Position numbers and translations under genes: made by a program. DNA of 47,047 nucleotides, from IMG/VR virus record IMGVR_UViG_3300030116_002682, positions 15,838 through 62,884 of that record; one strand, 5' to 3'. The stretch comes from a virus. The notes beneath the pieces are model-generated. The model worked only from the letters and a program-made list of their open reading frames with translations, made no database searches and was not told the origin of the DNA. Position 1 is the stretch's first letter; every line of letters begins with the position of its first letter. This document shows, one piece after another, positions 1,597 through 40,078 of the stretch.

Positions 1597-2285
1597 GTAA
1601 AGCTATGGTAGTATTATCAGGAGGGCAGGATTCCACAATATGTTTACATTGGGCATTAATAAATTATAAAGAAGTAGAAACTATTAGTTTTAATTATGGA
1701 CAAAAACATAGTTTAGAATTAAAAAGTGCTATTAAGATTTCTAATTTAAATAATGTTACCCATACGGTAATTAATGTTCCAGATATTTTAAAATCCAGAA
1801 GTCCTTTAATTAATAAAAATGAACAGTTAGAAGAATATAAAAATTATGAAGAAATGGATAAAATAATTGGGGATAGAGTGGAGTTAACTTTTGTTCCTAT
1901 GCGTAATGCTTTCTTTTTAACATTAGCTACTAATATTGCTTTATCTAAAGATATTAAAACTTTAGTAACAGGAGTATGTCAGCAAGATAATGCTAATTAT
2001 CCTGATTGCCGAGATTCTTTTATTCGCTCACAAGAATTGACAATTAATTATGCTTTAGGTATATCTGATTTTAATATTGTTACTCCTTTAATGTTTATGA
2101 GTAAAAAAGAAAGTATAATGTTAGCAATGAAAATGAATAAATGTATGGAATCTTTAGCTTATAGTCATACTTGTTATGCTGGTCAATTTCCGCCTTGTGG
2201 AAAATGCCACGCGTGTGTTTTAAGAGCTCAAGGTTTTAAGGAAGCAGGAGTTAAAGACCCATTAATAGAAAGAGCTAATAAATGA
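1593..2285 (+). CDS. queC: QueC, 7-cyano-7-deazaguanine (preQ0) synthase
   Basis: This 230-residue protein should convert 7-carboxy-7-deazaguanine plus ammonia and ATP into preQ0. The N-terminus has the PP-loop ATP-pyrophosphatase motif SGGQDS (residues 9-14). The middle carries the FVPMRNAFFLTLA helix and 'TGVCQQDNANYPDCR' substrate region. The C-terminus has a zinc site made of a Cys in HTCY and the CGKCHAC cluster. The length is normal for the family. The start overlaps the DpdA stop by four bases. As there is no queF in the window, preQ0 is likely the end product passed to DpdA. Confidence 0.95.
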   Translation: MSKAMVVLSGGQDSTICLHWALINYKEVETISFNYGQKHSLELKSAIKISNLNNVTHTVINVPDILKSRSPLINKNEQLEEYKNYEEMDKIIGDRVELTFVPMRNAFFLTLATNIALSKDIKTLVTGVCQQDNANYPDCRDSFIRSQELTINYALGISDFNIVTPLMFMSKKESIMLAMKMNKCMESLAYSHTCYAGQFPPCGKCHACVLRAQGFKEAGVKDPLIERANK

Positions 2286-2707
2286 TAGTAATAATACCTT
2301 GTGGAAGTAAAAAAAGTAACGAGCCTACTTTAATTAAAAATTTATATAAAGGAGGATATTTTAAATGGTGTAAAAAATGGGCAGAGTCTGTTACCAGCAA
2401 AGAAAAAATATATATTTTATCAGCTAAATATGGATTTATAAATTATTTATATCAAAAAAAAATATCGCCTTACGAAGTAACTTTTAATAATAAAATCAAC
2501 TGTATAGCTCAAAATATATTAAATAAACAAGCAATATATTTTAATATTAAAAAAGCTTTTGTATTAGGTGGTAAAAATTATATAGATAGATGTAAATTAG
2601 CTATTGATGATATTAATAGTATTCAAGAATTATATCCTGAAAAAAGATGGGGAATAGGTTATCAAATGCAATTTTTAAAAAATAATTTAGGAAAACAATT
2701 ATGGTAA
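2282..2707 (+). CDS. DUF6884-like protein
   Basis: This 141-residue protein has the pattern I associate with DUF6884: an N-terminal 'IIPCGSKK' motif, 'YILSAKYGFI' near residue 45, and a central helix before 'FVLGGKNYI'. The fold is probably Rossmann-like. Its function is unknown. It lies between queC and folE with four- and seven-base overlaps, so it is part of the modification operon. A DNA-base-modifying or base-recognition role is plausible from context only. Confidence 0.6.
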   Translation: MIVIIPCGSKKSNEPTLIKNLYKGGYFKWCKKWAESVTSKEKIYILSAKYGFINYLYQKKISPYEVTFNNKINCIAQNILNKQAIYFNIKKAFVLGGKNYIDRCKLAIDDINSIQELYPEKRWGIGYQMQFLKNNLGKQLW

Positions 2708-3363: not shown

Positions 3364-3808
3364 ATCTACAAAAACATACACACAAATAGGACCAGTTGCT
3401 TATAGACAATGGAGAGCAGATAGTCATTGTAATCTAATACACGGATATGCACTATCTTTTCATTTTGAATTTGAAAGTAAAACATTAGATGCTAGAAATT
3501 GGGTAATGGATTTTGGAGGATTAAAACCTTTAAAATCATTATTAGAGGATTGGTTTGACCATACTTTTTTATTAGCTCAAGATGACCCAGAGTATGAGTT
3601 TTTAAAACAGTTAGGAGAAAAAAAATTAGCAAAAATAACTGAAGTAGAAAAAACTGGTTGTGAAGGTATAGCTGATTTTTTATATGAATATATAAATACT
3701 ATATTTTTAAAAGATTATGGCGAACAAGATAGGATTTGGTGTTGCAAAGTAGAAGTGAGAGAAACAAATTCTAATATGGCTATGAAAGTAGGTCATAGAG
3801 ATGAGTAA
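3356..3808 (+). CDS. queD: QueD, 6-carboxytetrahydropterin synthase, non-canonical start
   Basis: The first ATG (3506) would begin after the active site. The same frame is open upstream and encodes 'RQWRADSHCNLIHGYALSF', which holds the QueD core: Cys25 as catalytic residue and His29 as zinc ligand in C-x3-H-G-x. There is a Tyr where most QueD have the second His of HGH. Later 'VMDFGGLK' and 'FDHTFLL' are also typical. No ATG, GTG or TTG is available in the extended frame. An ATA at 3356 sits seven bases after AAGGA (3344-3348) inside folE, giving 150 residues. A one- or two-base assembly error removing an ATG near 3364, or a +1 frameshift from folE, are alternatives. The enzyme converts dihydroneopterin triphosphate to carboxytetrahydropterin. 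Confidence 0.8.
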   Translation: MYKSTKTYTQIGPVAYRQWRADSHCNLIHGYALSFHFEFESKTLDARNWVMDFGGLKPLKSLLEDWFDHTFLLAQDDPEYEFLKQLGEKKLAKITEVEKTGCEGIADFLYEYINTIFLKDYGEQDRIWCCKVEVRETNSNMAMKVGHRDE

Positions 3809-4193
3809 ATATGCTTATTTAGATTGGTTAGATTTTGATTTAGCAATAAGTCGGTTATATGATAGGTATAAAGGAATGGAATTTTCTGGTATTTATGGGG
3901 TTAAAAGAGGAGGATTAATATTAGCAGTCGCATTATCCCATCAATTAAAGCTTAAATTTTTACAAAAACCTGAAAAAAATTGTTTATGGGTTGATGATAT
4001 TATAGATTCTGAACGAACTTTTAATAAATATAAGGGAAAATGCAAAGAATACTGTTGTTGGGTAAGCAAAAAAGATAATAGTAAATATTTTTCTTTATTA
4101 TTAAGTAAAAAATGGGTAGTCTTTCCTTGGGAATCTGCTAAATATACCGATATTAAAGAGGATTATCGTAAATATGTCGAGAGAATTACTTAA
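3801..4193 (+). CDS. Phosphoribosyltransferase-like protein
   Basis: This 130-residue protein has a type I phosphoribosyltransferase pattern. 'IYGVKRGGLILAVALSHQL' (about residues 32-50) matches the N-terminal loop. 'CLWVDDIIDSERTF' (about 60-73) matches the PRPP-binding loop with two acidic residues followed by a short Ser/Thr turn. It is short for the family. It overlaps queD by eight bases and queE by twenty, so it is embedded in the preQ0 operon. A purine-salvage role feeding the GTP pool, or salvage of a deazaguanine base, is possible. The substrate cannot be told from the sequence. Confidence 0.7.
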   Translation: MSKYAYLDWLDFDLAISRLYDRYKGMEFSGIYGVKRGGLILAVALSHQLKLKFLQKPEKNCLWVDDIIDSERTFNKYKGKCKEYCCWVSKKDNSKYFSLLLSKKWVVFPWESAKYTDIKEDYRKYVERIT

Positions 4194-4848
4194 AATTAAC
4201 GAAATATTCGAAACTATACAAGGAGAAGGAACACAAACTGGAACGGCTAGTGTTTTTGTCAGATTACAAGGATGTGATGTAGGATGTGCATTTTGCGATA
4301 CCAAGCATACCTGGGCAGATGATACAGGAAGTGTAAAAAAATTAGATTATATTTTAAATAAAAATATGGATACAGAGCATTGGTGTTGGTTGCAAAATTT
4401 TGACCTATATCAATTAATTAATAATAAATTTAAAGCTAAACATATAGTATTTACTGGAGGAGAACCTTGTTTATATGATTTAACAAGGGCAACCAACTAT
4501 TTTATACAAGGTAAATACACTTGTCAAATAGAAACTTCAGGCACAGAAGAAATAAAATGCAATCCAAAAACTTGGGTAACGGTATCGCCAAAAATAAATA
4601 TGAGTGGAGGTAAAAAATTAATACCATCTGCTATAGAACGAGCTAATGAAATTAAAATGCCCATAGGAAAACAAAAAGATATAGATATTTTAAAAGATTT
4701 TATTAAAGATTATCAGATAAAAGATAAAAGTATATATTTACAACCTTTAAGCCAAAGTAAAAAAGCAACAGAATTATGTGTGCAAAGTTGTATAGATTAT
4801 AATTGGAAAATCAGCATACAAACTCATAAATATATAGGATTAAGATAA
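4174..4848 (+). CDS. queE: QueE, 7-carboxy-7-deazaguanine synthase
   Basis: This 224-residue radical-SAM enzyme rearranges carboxytetrahydropterin to 7-carboxy-7-deazaguanine. The N-terminus has 'INEIFETIQGEG' and 'FVRLQGCDVGCAFCDTKHTW', giving the CX3CX2C iron-sulfur motif (residues about 33-40) used by many QueE. 'VFTGGEPC' near residue 91 is the SAM-binding GGE motif, and 'IETSGT' follows near 114. The length is normal. It completes the FolE-QueD-QueE-QueC route to preQ0 in this operon. Its stop abuts the TerS start at 4848. Confidence 0.95.
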   Translation: MSRELLKINEIFETIQGEGTQTGTASVFVRLQGCDVGCAFCDTKHTWADDTGSVKKLDYILNKNMDTEHWCWLQNFDLYQLINNKFKAKHIVFTGGEPCLYDLTRATNYFIQGKYTCQIETSGTEEIKCNPKTWVTVSPKINMSGGKKLIPSAIERANEIKMPIGKQKDIDILKDFIKDYQIKDKSIYLQPLSQSKKATELCVQSCIDYNWKISIQTHKYIGLR

Positions 4849-5228
4849 TGCCCAGACCACCATTTGAGCCAACACCAGAACAAGAAAGAGTTTGCTCTTT
4901 AGGGGTAGCATTTGGTTTAACGCACGAGCAAATAGCAAAGTTAGTAGGATGTGATGCTAAAACATTACGCAAACATTTTAGAAATGCTTTAGAAACTGGT
5001 AGAGAAAAATTAACTATGGCAATAGGAAGTCAATTATATAAAAAAGCTATGAACGGAGATACTATATCTGCAATTTTTTTAGCAAAAACTAAAGCTGGAT
5101 TTCAAGAAAAAGTGGAACACGAAGGTATACCTAATAATATATCCGTTAGTTTTAATTTAGAGCCTCCTAAAGAAGTTCTTGACGCAGAAGTAATTACAGA
5201 TAAAATAACCCATAAAAAAAAGGAGTAA
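4848..5228 (+). CDS. terS: Terminase small subunit, module A
   Basis: This 126-residue protein has an N-terminal helix-turn-helix, 'GLTHEQIAKLVGCDAKTLRKH' (about residues 24-44), typical of DNA-binding small terminases. A long central helix and a low-complexity C-tail follow. It is clearly homologous to module B's TerS at 39671, with most central residues identical. It should recognise the packaging site and hand DNA to TerL. In both modules it is the first conserved packaging gene after the variable modification cassette. Confidence 0.75.
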   Translation: MPRPPFEPTPEQERVCSLGVAFGLTHEQIAKLVGCDAKTLRKHFRNALETGREKLTMAIGSQLYKKAMNGDTISAIFLAKTKAGFQEKVEHEGIPNNISVSFNLEPPKEVLDAEVITDKITHKKKE

Positions 5229-5231
5229 GTT

Positions 5232-5348
5232 ATGCCCTATACAAATAAAAAAAAGCCGTCAAATCAAATACAAAGAAATAAAAAAAAAGTAAGAGTAGTG
5301 ATGGGAAATAAAAATAATAAAAAAAATAATTATAAAAAAACAACATAA
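5232..5348 (+). CDS. Small lysine/asparagine-rich basic protein
   Basis: This 38-residue ORF is very basic. Its segment KKKVRVVMGNKNNKK closely matches KKKVRIVMGNKNKK in the 40-residue ORF at 40515 of module B, which is the main reason for calling it real. It starts three bases after the TerS stop, and its stop overlaps the next ATG (TAATG at 5346-5350). Function unknown; a DNA-binding or capsid-associated role is possible from charge and position. Confidence 0.6.
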   Translation: MPYTNKKKPSNQIQRNKKKVRVVMGNKNNKKNNYKKTT

Positions 5349-5758
5349 TGTGGCATTACGAAAAAAATGTAATAACAAAACAAAATGCAAATATTTTGGC
5401 AAAAAAAGATGGTTATAAATTATTTACCGATATATTAATAGAACCTATTATTAAAATTATAAAAAAAATAATACCAATCGATATTTCAAAACCAAGTTAT
5501 TGTTTAGTAGAAAGCAGAAGTAGAGGACACGATTGGCATACAGATAAAGGCACAAATAATCATATGAGCTGGTGCAAATATAGTGCCTCTATATTATTAA
5601 CTAATCCTGATAATTATAGAGGTGGATATTTTTTAACAAGGGACAAAATAATTAAAAAAGCCCATTATTTAAGTATGTTATTATACTCTAGTGATATAGA
5701 GCATAAGGTTGAATCTTTTGATGGTAATAGAAAAGCTTTATTAATGTTTTTTAAATAA
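5348..5758 (+). CDS. 2OG-Fe(II) oxygenase-like protein
   Basis: This 136-residue protein shows the double-stranded beta-helix oxygenase signature. 'HDWHTDKG' provides the HxD iron ligands near residues 62-64. 'DIEHKVESFDGNRKALLMFF' near the C-terminus provides the distal His and an Arg that would bind 2-oxoglutarate. It is shorter than prolyl hydroxylases but within the range of phage versions. It lies between TerS and TerL and is absent from module B. The substrate could be a virion protein or a DNA base; proximity to the deazaguanine cassette makes DNA worth considering, but nothing in the sequence proves it. Confidence 0.65.
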   Translation: MWHYEKNVITKQNANILAKKDGYKLFTDILIEPIIKIIKKIIPIDISKPSYCLVESRSRGHDWHTDKGTNNHMSWCKYSASILLTNPDNYRGGYFLTRDKIIKKAHYLSMLLYSSDIEHKVESFDGNRKALLMFFK

Positions 5759-5759
5759 T

Positions 5760-7094
5760 ATGCACATAACTATTCCTTATACTCCCAGACCACAACAAGC
5801 TAAATTACATTCAAATACTAAAAGATTTAAAATTTGCGTATCTCATAGAAGATGGGGAAAATCGGTTTATGCAGTTACAGAATTATTAAGAAAAGCTTTA
5901 GAGATTAAAACAGAAAGAAAAGATGGTAGATTTGCTTATATAGCTCCATACTATCGACAAGCAAAAGCGGTTGCTTGGGATTATTTATTATATTATACAA
6001 AAGATATTCCTGGAACAAAAATAAATCAATCTGAATTGCGTATAGATTTAATTAATGGTAGTCGTATACGATTATATGGTGCAGGAGATGACCCAGATGC
6101 CCTTCGTGGAATTTTCTTGGATGGGGTAATTCTCGACGAGTATGCCGACATGAGTCCTAGAATGTGGAGTGAAATTATTAGACCAGCTTTAACAGATAGA
6201 AAAGGATGGGCAATATTTATTGGAACACCAAAAGGAAGAAATCAATTCTGGCAATTATATCAAAATGCAAAAAGTGATAATGAATGGTATCGAGTTATAT
6301 ATCGTGCTAGCGAAACAGGAGTGGTAGACCCAAAAGAATTAGAAGCGGCAAAAAAACAAATGGGCGAAGATGAATATATGCAAGAATTTGAATGCAGTTG
6401 GGCGGCTGCCATTAAAGGCTCTTATTATGGTAATTTAATTATAGAAGCAGAACAGGAAGGGAGAGTAACTAAAGTAGATTTAGACCCAACATTACCAGTT
6501 CATGTTGCCTGGGATTTAGGAATATCAGATAGTTGTGCTTTATGGTTTTTTCAAGTAACTATGGGCGAAATTAGAGTTATAGATTGTTATGAAAGTGCAG
6601 GAGTAGGATTAGAACATTATGTTAAAGTTATGAAAGAAATGAATATAGATTATTGGGGAGATGATTATTTGCCTCACGATGCTAAAGTAAGAGAGCTAGG
6701 AACTGGTAGAACAAGGGCGGAAACTTTAATTAATATGGGTAGGCGACCACGCATAGTTCCTAATCATAAAGTTGATGATGGAATCAATGCTGTACGATTA
6801 TTATTGCAAAATTGTTATTTTGATGCTAATAAGTGTGAAAATGGTTTAAACGCATTGCGTAATTATCAAAGAGAATGGGATGATGTTAAAAGAGTATTTA
6901 AAAGAAATCCTTTACATAATTGGAGTTCGCATTTCTCCGATAGTTTTAGATATTTGGCTATGTCCTATAAACATATCAAACCTAAAAAAGAAGAGCCAGA
7001 TATAATGAAAGAAATGTTAAAAACTCCAACATTAGATGAAATGATAAAAATGCACGAAAAAGAAAAACGCAGTAAACCAGAGAGAAGAATTTAA
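5760..7094 (+). CDS. terL: Terminase large subunit, module A
   Basis: This 444-residue DNA-packaging motor has an N-terminal ATPase with Walker A 'HRRWGKS' (residues 29-35) and Walker B 'GIFLDGVILDEYADM' (about 119-133). A coupling motif 'FIGTPKG' near 155 follows. The C-terminal RNase H-like nuclease starts with 'HVAWDLGISDS' (about 248) and ends with 'SHFSDSFRYLA'. Its first 100 residues match 91 of 100 in module B's TerL (41189), yet many codons differ. The length is normal. Confidence 0.95.
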   Translation: MHITIPYTPRPQQAKLHSNTKRFKICVSHRRWGKSVYAVTELLRKALEIKTERKDGRFAYIAPYYRQAKAVAWDYLLYYTKDIPGTKINQSELRIDLINGSRIRLYGAGDDPDALRGIFLDGVILDEYADMSPRMWSEIIRPALTDRKGWAIFIGTPKGRNQFWQLYQNAKSDNEWYRVIYRASETGVVDPKELEAAKKQMGEDEYMQEFECSWAAAIKGSYYGNLIIEAEQEGRVTKVDLDPTLPVHVAWDLGISDSCALWFFQVTMGEIRVIDCYESAGVGLEHYVKVMKEMNIDYWGDDYLPHDAKVRELGTGRTRAETLINMGRRPRIVPNHKVDDGINAVRLLLQNCYFDANKCENGLNALRNYQREWDDVKRVFKRNPLHNWSSHFSDSFRYLAMSYKHIKPKKEEPDIMKEMLKTPTLDEMIKMHEKEKRSKPERRI

Positions 7095-15502: not shown

Positions 15503-16683
15503 GTTTTTTAAAAAATATTTTTAGCTCACCAAAACCACCTCCAGCTCCAGATTATGCAGGTGCAGCTCGTGCTCAAGGTGCCGCTAATGTAGAAACTGCA
15601 AGAGTAGAAGGAAGAATGAATAGACCTGATGTTTATTCTCCTTATGACCAAACTATTGTAACAGATTTAGGTGATGATAGATTTAGACAAGATTATACTC
15701 TAGCACCAGAGTATGAAGCACAAAGACAACAACAAGTAGGAATAACTAATAAATTTTTAGATACTGCTGGTAACTATTTAAGTGGATTACCACAAGAAAC
15801 TTTTTCTTTAGCTAACTTATCACCACAACCCGGTCTTATAGATAGAAGTGGTTTTCAAGCAATACCTAATATGGGTAATATTGATGACTATGCAACTAGA
15901 GTAGAAGGTGCATATTTTGATAGAGCATTAAATAGATTACAACCACAATTTCAACAACAAGAAATAGATTTAAGAACACAATTAATTAACTCTGGTATAC
16001 CAGAAGGCTCAGATGCTTATAATGCAGCAATCGGTGATTTGAGAATGCAACAAAATGATTCTTTAAGAGATTTAGCACAAGAATCTATAAGAGAAGGACA
16101 AGCATTAGCTGATGCACAGTTGCAAAGAGCAACAGGTCTTAGAAGTTTTCAGATAGGAGATGCAGAAGGTGTTGTTAGAGAGCAAGAAAGAATAAGAGAT
16201 AGACAGCTAGCAGATTATTTACTATCAAGAAATCAACCGCTAACAGAAATAGCTGCACTATCTGGACAAGCACCACCTCCACCTAGTGTAGCTACTACTG
16301 GTTTAAATGTACCAGCAGTTAGTGTAGCACCACCACCAATCTTTGCTGCAGCACAACAACAAGGTCAATTTGACCAAGGTAGTTATGCTGGTCAAGTTGG
16401 TGCTTATGGTGCAAGATTAAATGCTTTAGGAGATGCAGCGGCATCAGGTGCAACTTTAGCTATGTTATCTGATAAAAGATTAAAGAAAAATATTAAATTT
16501 AAATCTAAATCTAAATCTGGATTAAATATTTATGAATTTGAGTATAATTGGTCTCCAGAAAGATATACTGGTGTTATAGCACAAGATATTAAAAAGATAA
16601 AACCATCTGCTATATCTGAAAATATTTTTGGACATTTAATGGTAGATTATAACCAAATAGATGTAAATATGGAAAGAGTATAA
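15499..16683 (+). CDS. Internal virion protein with C-terminal S74-type chaperone domain
   Basis: This 394-residue protein has a Pro-rich N-terminus, Gln/Arg/Asp-rich helical segments ('RLQPQFQQQEIDLRTQLINSG') and an Ala/Gly-rich patch. This is the usual composition of podovirus ejection or internal virion proteins. The last 65 residues hold 'SDKRLKKNI' followed by 'YEFEYNW', 'YTGVIAQDI' and 'MVDYNQID', which is the peptidase S74/intramolecular chaperone signature. The Ser and the Lys five residues later are spaced as in the self-cleaving dyad. It may be released after assembly by autocleavage. Confidence 0.7.
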   Translation: MSFLKNIFSSPKPPPAPDYAGAARAQGAANVETARVEGRMNRPDVYSPYDQTIVTDLGDDRFRQDYTLAPEYEAQRQQQVGITNKFLDTAGNYLSGLPQETFSLANLSPQPGLIDRSGFQAIPNMGNIDDYATRVEGAYFDRALNRLQPQFQQQEIDLRTQLINSGIPEGSDAYNAAIGDLRMQQNDSLRDLAQESIREGQALADAQLQRATGLRSFQIGDAEGVVREQERIRDRQLADYLLSRNQPLTEIAALSGQAPPPPSVATTGLNVPAVSVAPPPIFAAAQQQGQFDQGSYAGQVGAYGARLNALGDAAASGATLAMLSDKRLKKNIKFKSKSKSGLNIYEFEYNWSPERYTGVIAQDIKKIKPSAISENIFGHLMVDYNQIDVNMERV

Positions 16684-33323: not shown

Positions 33324-33839
33324 TTATAATCTATAATATTTTTGTAACTCTCCTATGAATTCTGGTTTGTTATCTAGCTTATTCCATTTAGCAATACCTT
33401 TAAGATATTTATCAAAATAATAATATGTTTGATATGCTAGTGTTGGGTTAAATTTATTTTTATAGTCGTCTGGCATACATTGGGGATGCTCTAGTTCTAA
33501 TAAATCTTTAAAGCGATTGTAGCCATAACCTTTAGGGTGTGTAGGTATAAGCTTAATAACATCTTCGCTTTTATGCTTTCTACCATACCTTCTTGTATAT
33601 TCTTGACATAGTGCTTGTGCGTGTATATGTAACCATTCGTAATGGCTAGCACTATCCCCTGCCCATAAAGTACAAGGGTGTTTTTTGTGTACTTCTTTAT
33701 AAGGTATATTATCGTGTCCAAATCTATGCCATACATTACATAACATCTGTGCTGATTCCAATGGCATCTTGACAATATGTTTATCACACTGCATTTTTGC
33801 AGCAATTATTGGATTTTTATTTAATAAAAATATATTCAT
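33324..33839 (-). CDS. Conserved phage protein, possibly DNA-glycosylase-like
   Basis: This 171-residue protein begins 'MNIFLLNKNPIIAAKMQCDKHIVKMPLESAQML' and has 'HPCTLWAGDS' and 'HPKGYGYNRFKDLLELEHPQCMP' later. It is a conserved phage family that I recall being described as pyrimidine-dimer-glycosylase-like, although classical DenV motifs are not evident. It has conserved Cys, His and Trp residues. It has an AAGGAGCTAA ribosome site. Confidence 0.5.
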   Translation of the reverse strand: MNIFLLNKNPIIAAKMQCDKHIVKMPLESAQMLCNVWHRFGHDNIPYKEVHKKHPCTLWAGDSASHYEWLHIHAQALCQEYTRRYGRKHKSEDVIKLIPTHPKGYGYNRFKDLLELEHPQCMPDDYKNKFNPTLAYQTYYYFDKYLKGIAKWNKLDNKPEFIGELQKYYRL

Positions 33840-34833: not shown

Positions 34834-35739
34834 TTAAGCTACTTCCTTTTTTTCTTTAGGTTGTAAATTATTAAGAAAATCTATTGCTTGTGTACTCTTA
34901 CTAAAAGCTGTAAATATTGCTTTTGGATTATTTTGTATAATCTGTTTCCAACAATTTAAATATTTAGCGTGGTCTGGTGTTGGCTGTTTTACTACACCCA
35001 ACATTACACTAAGAATAGCTGAACCAGTTTCTGCTACCAATTCCTCCATAGCATATTCTTTGCTCATATAACCTTTCTTAAAATTTCTTTTACATCTACT
35101 ATCGTGTCCAGTCCAGTGTACTAATTCGTGTAGTAAAGTACTGTACCAATGAGCACTAGCAGTAGCTGTCTTTGTATTCTTAAAGTATTCCATACTTGGC
35201 ATATTTATGTAATCCAATACAGGTGAATAACAGGCTCTTGTCCCACCAATCTGAACCTCTGCTTTTGTATTCTTAATATATTCTTCTACTTTAGCTATTG
35301 GATTGACTTTATTGGTTAGCTTTGGCTTTGGTAATTCTACACCATCAACTTGATAGATATTAAAAACATTCCATATTTTTAAGAACCATCTGCTTTTTAT
35401 TTCTGGCTCGCCATTTGTATCTAAGCTATTTTTGTCTTCGTACTTTTTTAACTCCCAATAAAACACCCTTGTAGATTTTTCTCCTTTCTTAACTTTACCT
35501 CCAAGCTGTGTCCATTGTTTATAAGTTGCCCAAGCATTATGGACATATCCTTTCTTATAACTAGCTAAAGACAACCAGAAAATATTAAATCCAGTATAAT
35601 GTTTTTTAGTAGCATAGTTCATTGGAAAACTCTTACTCATTACATCTAACCAAGGCTTGTCCCAGTTAGTACCAAATTTATCCATATCTGCCAAGACTTG
35701 CTCTTGTACCTCTTTTATTATATTAGCTGTATAACTCAT
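34834..35739 (-). CDS. ardC: ArdC-like antirestriction protein
   Basis: This 301-residue protein has an N-terminal ArdC ssDNA-binding domain ('WDKPWLDVMSKSFPMNYATKKHYTGFNIFWL', about residues 25-55). A C-terminal zinc metallopeptidase-like domain has 'LLHELVHWTGHDSR' (HExxH-type) and a downstream Glu in 'AMEELVAETGSAIL'. ArdC proteins protect incoming DNA from restriction. Expression early from P1 fits that role. The length is normal. Confidence 0.85.
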   Translation of the reverse strand: MSYTANIIKEVQEQVLADMDKFGTNWDKPWLDVMSKSFPMNYATKKHYTGFNIFWLSLASYKKGYVHNAWATYKQWTQLGGKVKKGEKSTRVFYWELKKYEDKNSLDTNGEPEIKSRWFLKIWNVFNIYQVDGVELPKPKLTNKVNPIAKVEEYIKNTKAEVQIGGTRACYSPVLDYINMPSMEYFKNTKTATASAHWYSTLLHELVHWTGHDSRCKRNFKKGYMSKEYAMEELVAETGSAILSVMLGVVKQPTPDHAKYLNCWKQIIQNNPKAIFTAFSKSTQAIDFLNNLQPKEKKEVA

Positions 35740-37243: not shown

Positions 37244-37855
37244 ATGAACATAGAACAAGTAGATATAAATAAAATAAAACCTTATGAAAAAAATAGTAGA
37301 GTACATAACGATAGCCATATAAAGCAAGTATGTAAAAGTATAGAAGAATTTGGTTTTGTTAATCCTATTCTAGTAGATAAAAGATTTACTATTATAGCTG
37401 GCCACGGTAGATATATGGCAGCAAAAAAATTGGGATTTGAAAAAGTGCCTTGTATAAGAATAAACCATTTTAGTGAAGAACAAAGAAAAGCTTATGTAAT
37501 AGCTGATAATAAATTATCTTTAAATTCGTCTTGGGATACTGAAATGCTTTTACAAGAAATGAGTGATTTAAAAGATATGGGTTTTGATTTAGATATAACT
37601 GGCTTTAGCAGTATAGAACTTATGCCAGTATTAGAAGATAATGTAGTAGATAATCCTATGGCAGAATGGGACGATATGCCAGAATACGAACAAGAAGATT
37701 TAAGACCACATAGAACTATCTATGTCCATTTTAGAAATGAAGAAGATGTTCATGCTTTTTTTAAAATTATGCACCAATCATTTACACCACAAACTAAAAC
37801 TATATGGCACCCAAAGCTAGTGCTTATGGAAAATAAAAATAAAAGGTATGAATAA
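37244..37855 (+). CDS. ParB/sulfiredoxin-fold protein, module B
   Basis: This 203-residue protein has the ParB/Srx domain with 'IKPYEKNSRVH', 'IIAGHGRYMAAKKLG' and 'AYVIADNKLSLNSSWD'. The C-terminal domain contains 'DMPEYEQEDLRPHRTIYVHFRNEEDV' and 'TKTIWHPK', which occurs in ParB proteins linked to phage DNA modification. It is unlike the C-terminus of the module A homologue. It overlaps the glycosyltransferase by eight bases. It may guide or activate base modification. Confidence 0.8.
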   Translation: MNIEQVDINKIKPYEKNSRVHNDSHIKQVCKSIEEFGFVNPILVDKRFTIIAGHGRYMAAKKLGFEKVPCIRINHFSEEQRKAYVIADNKLSLNSSWDTEMLLQEMSDLKDMGFDLDITGFSSIELMPVLEDNVVDNPMAEWDDMPEYEQEDLRPHRTIYVHFRNEEDVHAFFKIMHQSFTPQTKTIWHPKLVLMENKNKRYE

Positions 37856-38720
37856 ATATCCAATCTATATACCTAGCAAAGGCAGGTATGAAAAAAAATT
37901 ACGGACTACTTCTCTATATTTAGATGAAATAAATGTACCTTACAAATTAGTAGTAGAGCCAGATGAGTATGATAAATACTTAAAAGAAGTTAAAGATAAA
38001 TCTAAGCTAATGGTTTTAGATATGGCATACAAAAAAAAATATGATACTTGTGATAATTATGGTACAAAAAAATCTACTGGTAGTGGACCAGCTAGAAATT
38101 TTATTTGGGATTACGCAAAAAAAAACGGCTTTAAATATCATTGGTGTATGGACGATAATATTAGAAGCTTACAAAGAATTACTAAGAATAGAAAAATAAC
38201 AGTAAGTAATCCTATTATTATAAAGCTTATGGAAGATTTTGTAGAACGATATAAAAATGTTGCAATAGCTGGACCACAATATGATTATTTTCACCCATCT
38301 GGTGTAGTAAAAAAACCATTTAATGTTAATGCTAGAATCTATAGTTGCTTATTAATAAATACTGACATACCTTTTAGATGGCGAGGTAGACATAACGAAG
38401 ATACTATACTTAGCTTAGATGTTTTAAAAGATGGTTGGTGTACTATTCTATTTAATGCTTTTCTACAACAAAAGCAAACTACAATGACAATGAAAGGTGG
38501 CAACACAGAAGAATTTTATAAAGATAGCAGTAGGTTATATGTTTCTAAGCTTTTACAAAAAGTACACCCAGATTATACTAAAGTTGTAAAAAGATATAGA
38601 AGGTGGCATCACCAAGTAGATTATTCTAGCTTTACACAAAAACTTATAAGAAAAGAAAAGCTAGTAAAAAAAGGTCATAACAATTATGGTTTAAAACTGG
38701 TAACAAAGAAATATGGATAA
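37848..38720 (+). CDS. GREB1/TAGT-like glycosyltransferase
   Basis: This 290-residue protein has a GT-A-like pattern. 'YPIYIPSKGRYEKKLRTTSLYLDEINVPYKLVVEPDEYDKY' opens the nucleotide-sugar fold, 'GSGPARNFIWDYAKKNGFKYHW' follows, and 'MDDNIRSL' (residues about 101-108) is the metal-binding DxD-like motif. A basic C-terminal 70 residues follow. This matches the TET/JBP-associated glycosyltransferase group described from computational work on phage DNA hypermodification. No TET/JBP oxygenase is in module B. The likely acceptor is a modified base in DNA, but this is inference. Confidence 0.7.
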   Translation: MNKYPIYIPSKGRYEKKLRTTSLYLDEINVPYKLVVEPDEYDKYLKEVKDKSKLMVLDMAYKKKYDTCDNYGTKKSTGSGPARNFIWDYAKKNGFKYHWCMDDNIRSLQRITKNRKITVSNPIIIKLMEDFVERYKNVAIAGPQYDYFHPSGVVKKPFNVNARIYSCLLINTDIPFRWRGRHNEDTILSLDVLKDGWCTILFNAFLQQKQTTMTMKGGNTEEFYKDSSRLYVSKLLQKVHPDYTKVVKRYRRWHHQVDYSSFTQKLIRKEKLVKKGHNNYGLKLVTKKYG

Positions 38721-39678
38721 TTTTTTTAAAATTAAAAATAAAAACTTATTATCGGTATGCCCACCAGATGTAAATGAAATAGACTGGCAAAATTTTAGAA
38801 AAGATTTTAAAAAAGCAGATAGCTTAAATGATATTGGGCACCCTATACAACTAGATATAGAATTAAATGGTGGTTGTAATATGAGCTGTCCATTTTGTTT
38901 ACATGGGTATAAGAAAACTAAAAATATAAATTTACCTATAGAAGATTTTAAAAATATAATACATCAAGCAATAGAGTTAGGAGTAAAAAGTATTAAATTT
39001 AATTATATAAACGAACCTATGCTTAGAAAAGATTTAGAAGAATGTATAAAGTATGCTAAAAGCAAAGGTATATTAAATGTATATATGGTTACTAATGGAA
39101 CAGTACTAAATAAAAAAAGAAGATTATCTTTATTAGCTAGTGGTATAACAAAAGTTTTTATATCTTTAGATGCTGCAACAAAAGAAACTTATGAAAAACA
39201 AAGATTATCTGGAATGTTTGAAACTGTAAAAAATAATATAAAAGAATTTATAAAATTAAGAAACAGCCAAGGCAAAAAATTTCCATTAGTAAGAGTTAGT
39301 TTTCTAAAAAATTCTATAAATATACACGAAAAAGAAGATTTTGAAAAACAATGGCAAAATATAGCAGATATAATAAACTTTCAGACTATGAACGAAGTAC
39401 CAGATGTAAAAACTGGTCTTTTAGTAGAAAAAAGTATTGTACCAGATAAAGGTTGTAGCTTTCCATTTAAACAAATGGTAGTTGACCATCTAGGCAATAT
39501 ACAACCTTGCTGTAAATTAGAAGGAAAAAAACTTATTGTTGGCAATATTAAAAAAATGTCACTAAAAGAAGCTTGGAATAGTAAAAAATTTACTAATTTA
39601 CGAAAAATACACAAAAATAATGACTGGAAAAAACATTCCATTTGTTATAAATGTATGGTACCAAACGAAAATGGATAA
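38713..39678 (+). CDS. Radical-SAM/SPASM enzyme
   Basis: This 321-residue protein has 'ELNGGCNMSCPFCLHG' (CX3CX2C cluster, about residues 55-62) and 'FNYINEPMLRKDL' for the SAM region. The C-terminal SPASM-type part has Cys in 'KGCSFPFKQMVVDHLGNIQPCCKLEG', 'VGNIKKMSLKEAWNSKKF' and 'SICYKC'. It overlaps the glycosyltransferase by eight bases and the TerS start by eight. SPASM proteins modify peptides or sugars. In this locus it may act on the base or its sugar. Module A has queE in the comparable place, but the two are not orthologous. Confidence 0.8.
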   Translation: MDNFFKIKNKNLLSVCPPDVNEIDWQNFRKDFKKADSLNDIGHPIQLDIELNGGCNMSCPFCLHGYKKTKNINLPIEDFKNIIHQAIELGVKSIKFNYINEPMLRKDLEECIKYAKSKGILNVYMVTNGTVLNKKRRLSLLASGITKVFISLDAATKETYEKQRLSGMFETVKNNIKEFIKLRNSQGKKFPLVRVSFLKNSINIHEKEDFEKQWQNIADIINFQTMNEVPDVKTGLLVEKSIVPDKGCSFPFKQMVVDHLGNIQPCCKLEGKKLIVGNIKKMSLKEAWNSKKFTNLRKIHKNNDWKKHSICYKCMVPNENG

Positions 39679-40078
39679 AATGAAAGATACTGGCAGACCA
39701 AACTTTGAAAAAACACCTGAAATGGAAAGAATTTGTTCTTTAGGCGTTGCTTTCGGCTTAACTCACGAGCAAATTGCAAAATTAGTTGGGTGTAGCCCTA
39801 AAACTTTACGAAAACATTTTCAAAATGCGTTAGAAACTGGTAAAGAAAAATTAACTATGGCTATTGGAGGTCAATTGTATAAAAAAGCTATGAATGGCGA
39901 TACAATTTCTGCAATTTTTTTAGCAAAAACTAAAGCTGGATTTACAGAAAAAGTAGAACACGAAGGTTTACCAAATAATATATCAGTAAGCTTTAATTTA
40001 GAGCCAGAAAAAAAAATTGTTGACGCAGAAAAAGTATTAGATAAAATAACTCACAAAAAGGGTAGTGATGGCAACTAG
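39671..40078 (+). CDS. terS: Terminase small subunit, module B
   Basis: This 135-residue homologue of the module A TerS shares 'CSLGVAFGLTHEQIAKLVGC' with its HTH, and 'KLTMAIG' and 'AISAIFLAKTKAGF'-type blocks. I prefer ATG 39671 (or 39680) to the upstream ATG at 39620, as the alignment to the 4848 gene begins at 'GRPNFEKTPEMER'. The 3' end overlaps the next gene by eleven bases. Confidence 0.75.
   Translation: MDKMKDTGRPNFEKTPEMERICSLGVAFGLTHEQIAKLVGCSPKTLRKHFQNALETGKEKLTMAIGGQLYKKAMNGDTISAIFLAKTKAGFTEKVEHEGLPNNISVSFNLEPEKKIVDAEKVLDKITHKKGSDGN

Follow-up and report, generated by a model that had tools for sequence, protein, structure and literature searches.

A phage cassette of ParB-like, TAGT glycosyltransferase and radical-SAM/SPASM genes as a candidate DNA-glycosylation system

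Results

Genes at the locus and structure of the contig

The window analyzed here is a 47,047-nucleotide stretch of viral DNA corresponding to positions 15,838 to 62,884 of a 62.9-kb IMG/VR record (G000). It contains three genes in the order ParB_N protein, TAGT glycosyltransferase and radical-SAM/SPASM enzyme (rSAM), located immediately 5′ of the terminase genes terS and terL (Table 1). The initial annotation had described three overlapping genes forming a tight cassette, and the reading frames agree with this: each begins with ATG, and the overlaps are 8 nucleotides long. Note that the terS-like gene may instead start internally, at an ATG near 39671. A search for a parS-like site in the 713 bp of intergenic DNA preceding the cassette turned up weak AT-rich repeats and no convincing candidate.

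Table 1. Features of the window (positions are those of the window).
Feature	Position	Strand	Remarks
DNA 7-deazaguanine cassette, slot occupant of phage A	239..4848	+	ParB_N - DpdA-like - QueC - DUF6884 - FolE - QueD - PRTase - QueE
ArdC-type anti-restriction protein, left of slot	34834..35739	-	PF08401 / PF18818; last larger gene of the leftward region
ParB_N (ParB/Srx CTPase-fold) protein	37244..37855	+	203 aa; Pfam PF02195 E=1.9e-10; aa 1-135 ParB_N, aa about 139-203 C-terminal domain dC
TAGT GT-A glycosyltransferase, subfamily 1	37848..38720	+	290 aa; PF20691 E=4.4e-42
Radical-SAM enzyme with twitch/SPASM C-terminus	38713..39678	+	321 aa; PF04055 4.8e-15, PF13186 8.4e-15
Terminase small-subunit-like gene, right border of slot	39620..40078	+	phrog_309 / phrog_12540
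Terminase large subunit, phage B	41189..42523	+	anchor of the slot survey

A second record (G001, 34,553 bp) also carries the cassette. It matches G000:39659-62884 at 99.7%, and the rest consists of late genes matching G000:25691-39477 at about 97% and closing onto the G001 start. These alignments give the phage carrying the cassette (phage B) a genome length of about 34.6 kb, circularly permuted in G001. The most plausible reading of G000 is a stretch of another phage (phage A) joined to one full phage B length. Homologous regions are repeated within G000 at mostly 75-86% identity (window 1-27000 versus 27000-47047). These regions had initially been taken for modules A and B of a single genome; comparison of G001 with G000 points instead to two related phages. 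Because the modules are then alternative occupants of one slot in related phages, comparing them becomes more informative. The closest cultured terminases to phage B terL are those of Pelagibacter phages (46-47% identity), and no DNA-level relatives of the window were found among named phages. An ORF at window positions 33324-33839, assigned by eye, probably encodes a pyrimidine-dimer DNA glycosylase; PF03013 matches once in a scan of the G001 genome.

Sequence and predicted structure of the three proteins

The glycosyltransferase, which had been likened to enzymes of base hypermodification, is a true TAGT (PF20691, 144.8 bits; cut-off 27.5), and PHROGs ties it to ‘beta-glucosyl-HMC-alpha-glucosyltransferase’ (phrog_842). 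Residues R13, R83, D102-D103 (DxD-type), D185 and G217-G218 are invariant in an alignment of 38 sequences. Structure prediction for both enzymes, proposed in the initial annotation as a check, gave a GT-A fold for the TAGT (pLDDT 92) with matches that include SpsA and GalNAc-T2; its profile found no credible sequence relative among solved structures. Both enzymes are strongly basic, with net charges of +26 (TAGT) and +19 (rSAM).

In the rSAM, the CxxxCxxC cysteines C55, C59 and C62 are invariant in 29/29 homologues, as are the C-terminal cysteines C248, C266, C267, C311 and C314. No NCBIfam equivalog specific to the enzyme was found, and many partial matches fell far below cut-off. Its top sequence match in the PDB is BtrN (E=2e-26, covering the core and auxiliary-cluster regions), with BlsE and DesII also ranking high among solved relatives. 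The predicted structure (pLDDT 91.7) is about equally like SkfB, BlsE, SuiB, MoaA and BtrN (Z about 19-21; rmsd 2.9-3.4 Å over 230-276 residues), so that the substrate cannot be read from the fold. In BtrN, four cysteines bind the auxiliary cluster, which is proposed to accept an electron during a two-electron oxidation (PMC9012708). Homology of the rSAM to gp53 of phage M6 was considered and rejected (profile-comparison probability 0.7%, with only the CxxxCxxC motif aligning).

PADLOC pVip models also match the rSAM core (E=2e-15), as would be expected if the enzyme belonged to a viperin-like system producing modified nucleotides against competitors or host polymerases. We regard this as highly improbable: the pVip matches span the shared core only, a twitch/SPASM domain is present in the rSAM, BtrN rather than a viperin is the closest sequence match, and the partner genes encode a TAGT and a ParB_N protein.

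The ParB protein is placed by PHROGs with ParB-like and ParB-methylase families, and among named phages it is most closely related to the N-terminal parts of DNA methylases. Features of a canonical partition ParB were looked for; ParB_N was the only domain recognized (no HTH), and no ParA was present among the Pfam matches of phage B. The arrangement follows the pattern of ParB/Srx-fold DNA modification, in which ParB_N is adjacent or fused to DNA-modifying enzymes. Phage ParB-fold fusions to N6_N4 and Methyltransf_23 methylases are on record (PMC12704722), and ParBc genes lie near the CmoX DNA carboxymethyltransferase (PMC12783734).

The dC domain is found as a protein on its own, at the N-terminus of long TAGTs or, in a fusion, after ParB_N. 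Its presence follows the type of TAGT: subfamily 1 (T1) pairs with dC in 71/73 cases and subfamily 2 (T2) with a different domain, dC2, in 12/12. Between loci L086 and L088, identity is 87% for the rSAM, 61% for ParB_N, 32% for the C-terminal part of the ParB protein and 21% for the TAGT, indicating that the rSAM was kept through a joint change of the TAGT and its matching ParB C-terminus. On the simplest reading of these sequences, the ParB protein would be an adapter, with ParB_N for DNA and the C-terminus for the glycosyltransferase. The small domain of dC type has the consensus WEGMPEFEQE...VHFENEEDVDEFAKLIGQKITDKTKSIWYP and is found beside or fused to TAGT subfamily 1 (L006:9781-9999, L026:8567-8830, L038:9658-10002 and others); it gave no match in Pfam or PHROG. 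The idea that ParB accompanies nearly all TAGTs was rejected, as the short ORFs adjacent to many TAGTs lack ParB_N and match dC only.

Recurrence and co-occurrence

Scans for rSAM homologues returned 62 viral loci and one distant bacterial locus (27% identity); the family was found almost only in viral contigs. Among named phages, no homologue exceeded about 36% identity, and hence no cultured carrier was found. The three genes occur together in dozens of unrelated viral contigs and in shuffled orders (ParB-TAGT-rSAM, rSAM-ParB-TAGT, ParB-rSAM-TAGT, ParB-rSAM-MT-TAGT and TAGT-rSAM-CTPT), a recurrence that argues against chance association.

For the core count of co-occurrence, which had likewise been suggested as a check, loci flanked on each side by 1.5 kb or more were used and identical cores were removed, leaving 20 rSAM loci. 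A TAGT adjoins the rSAM in 18 of these and ParB_N is found in 19, L217 and L218 being the two exceptions; TET, in contrast, occurs without TAGT in 28/34 loci. Across the non-identical loci compared (50 and 53), none combined the rSAM with TET, and whole-record scans agree. ParB_N lies near the TAGT in 29/29 loci with rSAM, in 8/8 with TET and in 4/40 with neither. Comparing loci in which rSAM or TET is present (37/37) with those in which both are absent (4/40) gives Fisher p=1e-17, although the sequences were chosen by query, are related and are not independent, so that p-values are indicative only. At L217:6432-8957, a close relative of the rSAM (51% identity) lies in a tail-gene region, away from any TAGT or ParB_N and adjoining other rSAM-like genes.

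Several rSAM cassettes include accessory genes: an NAD epimerase (L212:3975-4931), cytidylyltransferase-like genes (L182:2425-2823 and L085:5302-5739), a class I methyltransferase (L181:2309-3103) and a TAGT-methyltransferase fusion (L185:5479-7431). These suggest varied sugars or further decoration.

Occupants of the slot beside the terminase genes

Seventy terL relatives were surveyed in the region between the leftward genes and terS. A terS-like gene is kept 3′ of every slot occupant, and the survey confirmed across sister phages that cassette B sits at the position of the deazaguanine system of A, as first proposed. Other phages carry a ParB-N6_N4 methylase fusion (L111, L119, L140, L160), ParB-DpdA-QueC...QueE (phage A and L128, with truncated copies in L133 and L150) or ParB-Tet_JBP-TAGT (L109, L110, L114, L115, L124, L127, L151 and L168; Tet_JBP E 4e-23), and some relatives of phage B lack any such cassette. 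The TET cassette of L168 additionally has an FkbM methyltransferase. In module A, DpdA is backed by phrog_887 and QueE by NCBIfam above cut-off; the cassette includes a DUF6884 protein (window 2282-2707) and a phosphoribosyltransferase-like protein (3801-4193).

Three further observations can be added. Between terS and terL, phage A has a small ORF (window 5348-5758) that resembles a 2OG-Fe(II) oxygenase by eye (WHTD ... EHKV ... GNRKALLMFF) and has no match in Pfam or PHROG. Directly behind the ParB-methylase fusion of L111 lies a gene resembling PLP-dependent enzymes (2206-2898; PF00291, sub-threshold). The cultured Pelagibacter phage HTVC112P (L291) carries ParB-TET/JBP-FkbM methyltransferase at 4375-6597, annotated as ParB-like nuclease, putative SNF2 repair protein and FkbM.

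Search for acceptor-forming enzymes

A TAGT needs an acceptor, for which TET/JBP provides in the sister cassette and a hydroxymethylase in T-even phages. To our knowledge, known routes to DNA glycosylation begin with a hydroxymethyl pyrimidine, the product of thymidylate-synthase-like or TET/JBP enzymes. The initial annotation had found no TET/JBP in module B, and this extends to the whole of G000 and to G001; two TET-bearing records used as positive controls (G053 and G056) both matched. The thymidylate synthase/dCMP hydroxymethylase family (PF00303) is likewise absent from G000 and G001, with controls matched, and no other recognized acceptor-forming domain was seen among the ORFs of phage B.

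About 40 loci (L003-L081) have a TAGT and a small dC domain in the absence of ParB_N, rSAM, TET and thymidylate synthase. Searches of these TAGT-only phages for acceptor makers found no thymidylate synthase, no TET and few rSAMs, and a Pfam tally of their neighboring genes gave no obvious candidate. Some TAGTs therefore obtain their acceptor in a way that involves neither rSAM nor TET, or act on something else. ‘Solitary TAGT’ phages, which lack alpha- and beta-glucosyltransferases, account for 288/753 genomes in one study and were left unexplained there (PMC13216743).

Discussion

Proposed function

The cassette, which some marine bacterial viruses carry, very probably attaches sugars to the phage's own DNA. 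That DNA is its target is likely in its own right, and several points bear on this. Characterized TAGTs act on hydroxymethylcytosine DNA (PMC13216743; PMC13390438), the T2/T6 enzyme placing a second glucose onto alpha-glucosyl-hmC (PMC13216743). The other occupants of the slot are known or predicted DNA-modification cassettes, and homologues of the ParB protein form the N-termini of DNA methylases. These observations also speak against a target other than DNA, namely a virion or host protein modified by glycopeptide or RiPP-like chemistry, or tRNA, with proximity to the terminase genes reflecting late-gene coupling. Many solved SPASM enzymes do act on peptides, the GT-A matches of the TAGT model include protein O-glycosyltransferases, and TAGTs often occur without ParB_N, rSAM or TET. 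However, none of the cassettes was seen to include a precursor-peptide gene, and overall we judge a non-DNA target improbable.

In our best model, the cassette glycosylates DNA after replication, and the rSAM takes the role of TET in forming the acceptor. We advance this model tentatively, at a little short of an even chance. The ParB_N protein would bind phage DNA and hold the TAGT through its C-terminal domain. The rSAM, as the counterpart of TET/JBP in the sister cassette, would then oxidize a base carbon by means of a 5′-deoxyadenosyl radical and an auxiliary Fe-S cluster, independently of O2. Its target would most plausibly be the C5-methyl group of thymine or 5-methylcytosine, which would become an acceptor, for example a hydroxymethyl group; for such an enzyme, the most economical chemistry would be to oxidize the C5-methyl of a pyrimidine. 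Finally, the TAGT would transfer a sugar to this acceptor, and the glycosylated bases would allow the phage's DNA to escape host nucleases. The most far-reaching version, in which the rSAM oxidizes or otherwise functionalizes a base carbon of DNA already in polymer form, with no need for O2, the TAGT glycosylates the product and an exchangeable ParB-type adapter does the recruiting, is possible but doubtful.

The model is supported by the retention of the rSAM through exchange of the TAGT, by the ParB C-terminus following the TAGT type and by the basic character of both enzymes. A base-activating role for the rSAM is suggested by the equivalence of the slots, the mutual exclusion of rSAM and TET and their shared dependence on ParB_N. 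Formation of the acceptor by the rSAM would also fit phage B, in which Tet_JBP, the thymidylate-synthase family and any other recognized candidate are missing, and it agrees with the invariant core and twitch cysteines and the likeness to BtrN, a two-electron oxidase. The model is weakened by the TAGTs that exist without rSAM, TET or thymidylate synthase. Also counting against it, water-derived oxygenation by rSAM enzymes is rare, the example found being the cobalamin-dependent BchE.

A further difficulty is that the rSAM almost never occurs without TAGT while TET often does, which an enzyme acting on the sugar would explain at least as well. DNA would again be modified, with the rSAM working after the TAGT to oxidize, epimerize or otherwise tailor the transferred sugar, much as rSAM enzymes reportedly remodel groups already attached in thymidine hypermodification. 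BtrN, the best PDB match, oxidizes a sugar-like alcohol, and the substrates of the solved relatives BtrN, BlsE and DesII are sugars or nucleoside-sugars; the NAD epimerase of L212, the cytidylyltransferases of L085 and L182 and the FkbM methyltransferase in a TET cassette are neighbors of a sugar type. Sugar tailoring would, however, leave the acceptor in phage B unexplained, there being no TET or thymidylate-synthase-type enzyme, and it does not account for the exclusion of rSAM and TET or for the way the rSAM tracks ParB_N as TET does. From this analysis we consider it the principal alternative and a serious one, though less likely than not.

If acceptor formation by the rSAM is correct, radical-SAM chemistry would be a new entry reaction to glycosylated DNA, possibly a categorically new one, in a widespread cassette. 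It may offer a route to functionalizing DNA without oxygen, as an O2-independent counterpart of TET/JBP. The cassette bears directly on the role of ‘solitary’ TAGTs, and the slot occupants suggest that ParB-type proteins serve the DNA-modifying enzymes of phages as a shared and exchangeable means of delivery.

Comparison with known systems

Consistent with the first impression that this combination is uncharacterized, no description of the ParB-TAGT-rSAM cassette was found in the open papers searched, though it may be mentioned in Iyer 2013, Burke 2021 or Lee 2021. The use of rSAM enzymes in phage DNA modification is not new as such. A radical-SAM isomerase reportedly takes part in the 5-hmdU-derived thymidine hypermodification of phages M6/ViI, where, as Lee et al. 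are said to have described in 2021, rSAM enzymes reshape appended groups. That pathway resembles cassette B in having an rSAM enzyme; M6, however, has a thymidylate synthase homologue and phage B has none, and the CxxxCxxC motif is all that M6 gp53 has in common with the cassette enzyme.

BtrN, a radical SAM twitch dehydrogenase, is the nearest solved enzyme by sequence, auxiliary-cluster region included. Its substrate is a free aminocyclitol, and it has no link to DNA. The DNA 7-deazaguanine cassette (DpdA, QueC, FolE, QueD, QueE) shares the ParB_N leader and the slot with cassette B, but its chemistry is unrelated. T-even DNA glucosylation (hmC with alpha/beta-GT and TAGT) has the TAGT family in common with cassette B; phage B, in contrast, lacks the dCMP-hydroxymethylase/thymidylate-synthase family and groups with the ‘solitary TAGT’ phages (PMC13216743). 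In cytosine C5-carboxymethylation by CmoX/CmoY (PMC12783734), where ParBc is often nearby, a carbon handle is placed on DNA and then decorated, using a SAM-derived carboxymethyltransferase and an amide ligase where cassette B has an rSAM and a glycosyltransferase. TET/JBP - TAGT hypermodification (PF12851 + PF20691) shares with cassette B the ParB_N leader, the TAGT and the terminase-proximal slot, and it has a 2OG-Fe(II) oxygenase where cassette B has the rSAM/SPASM enzyme.
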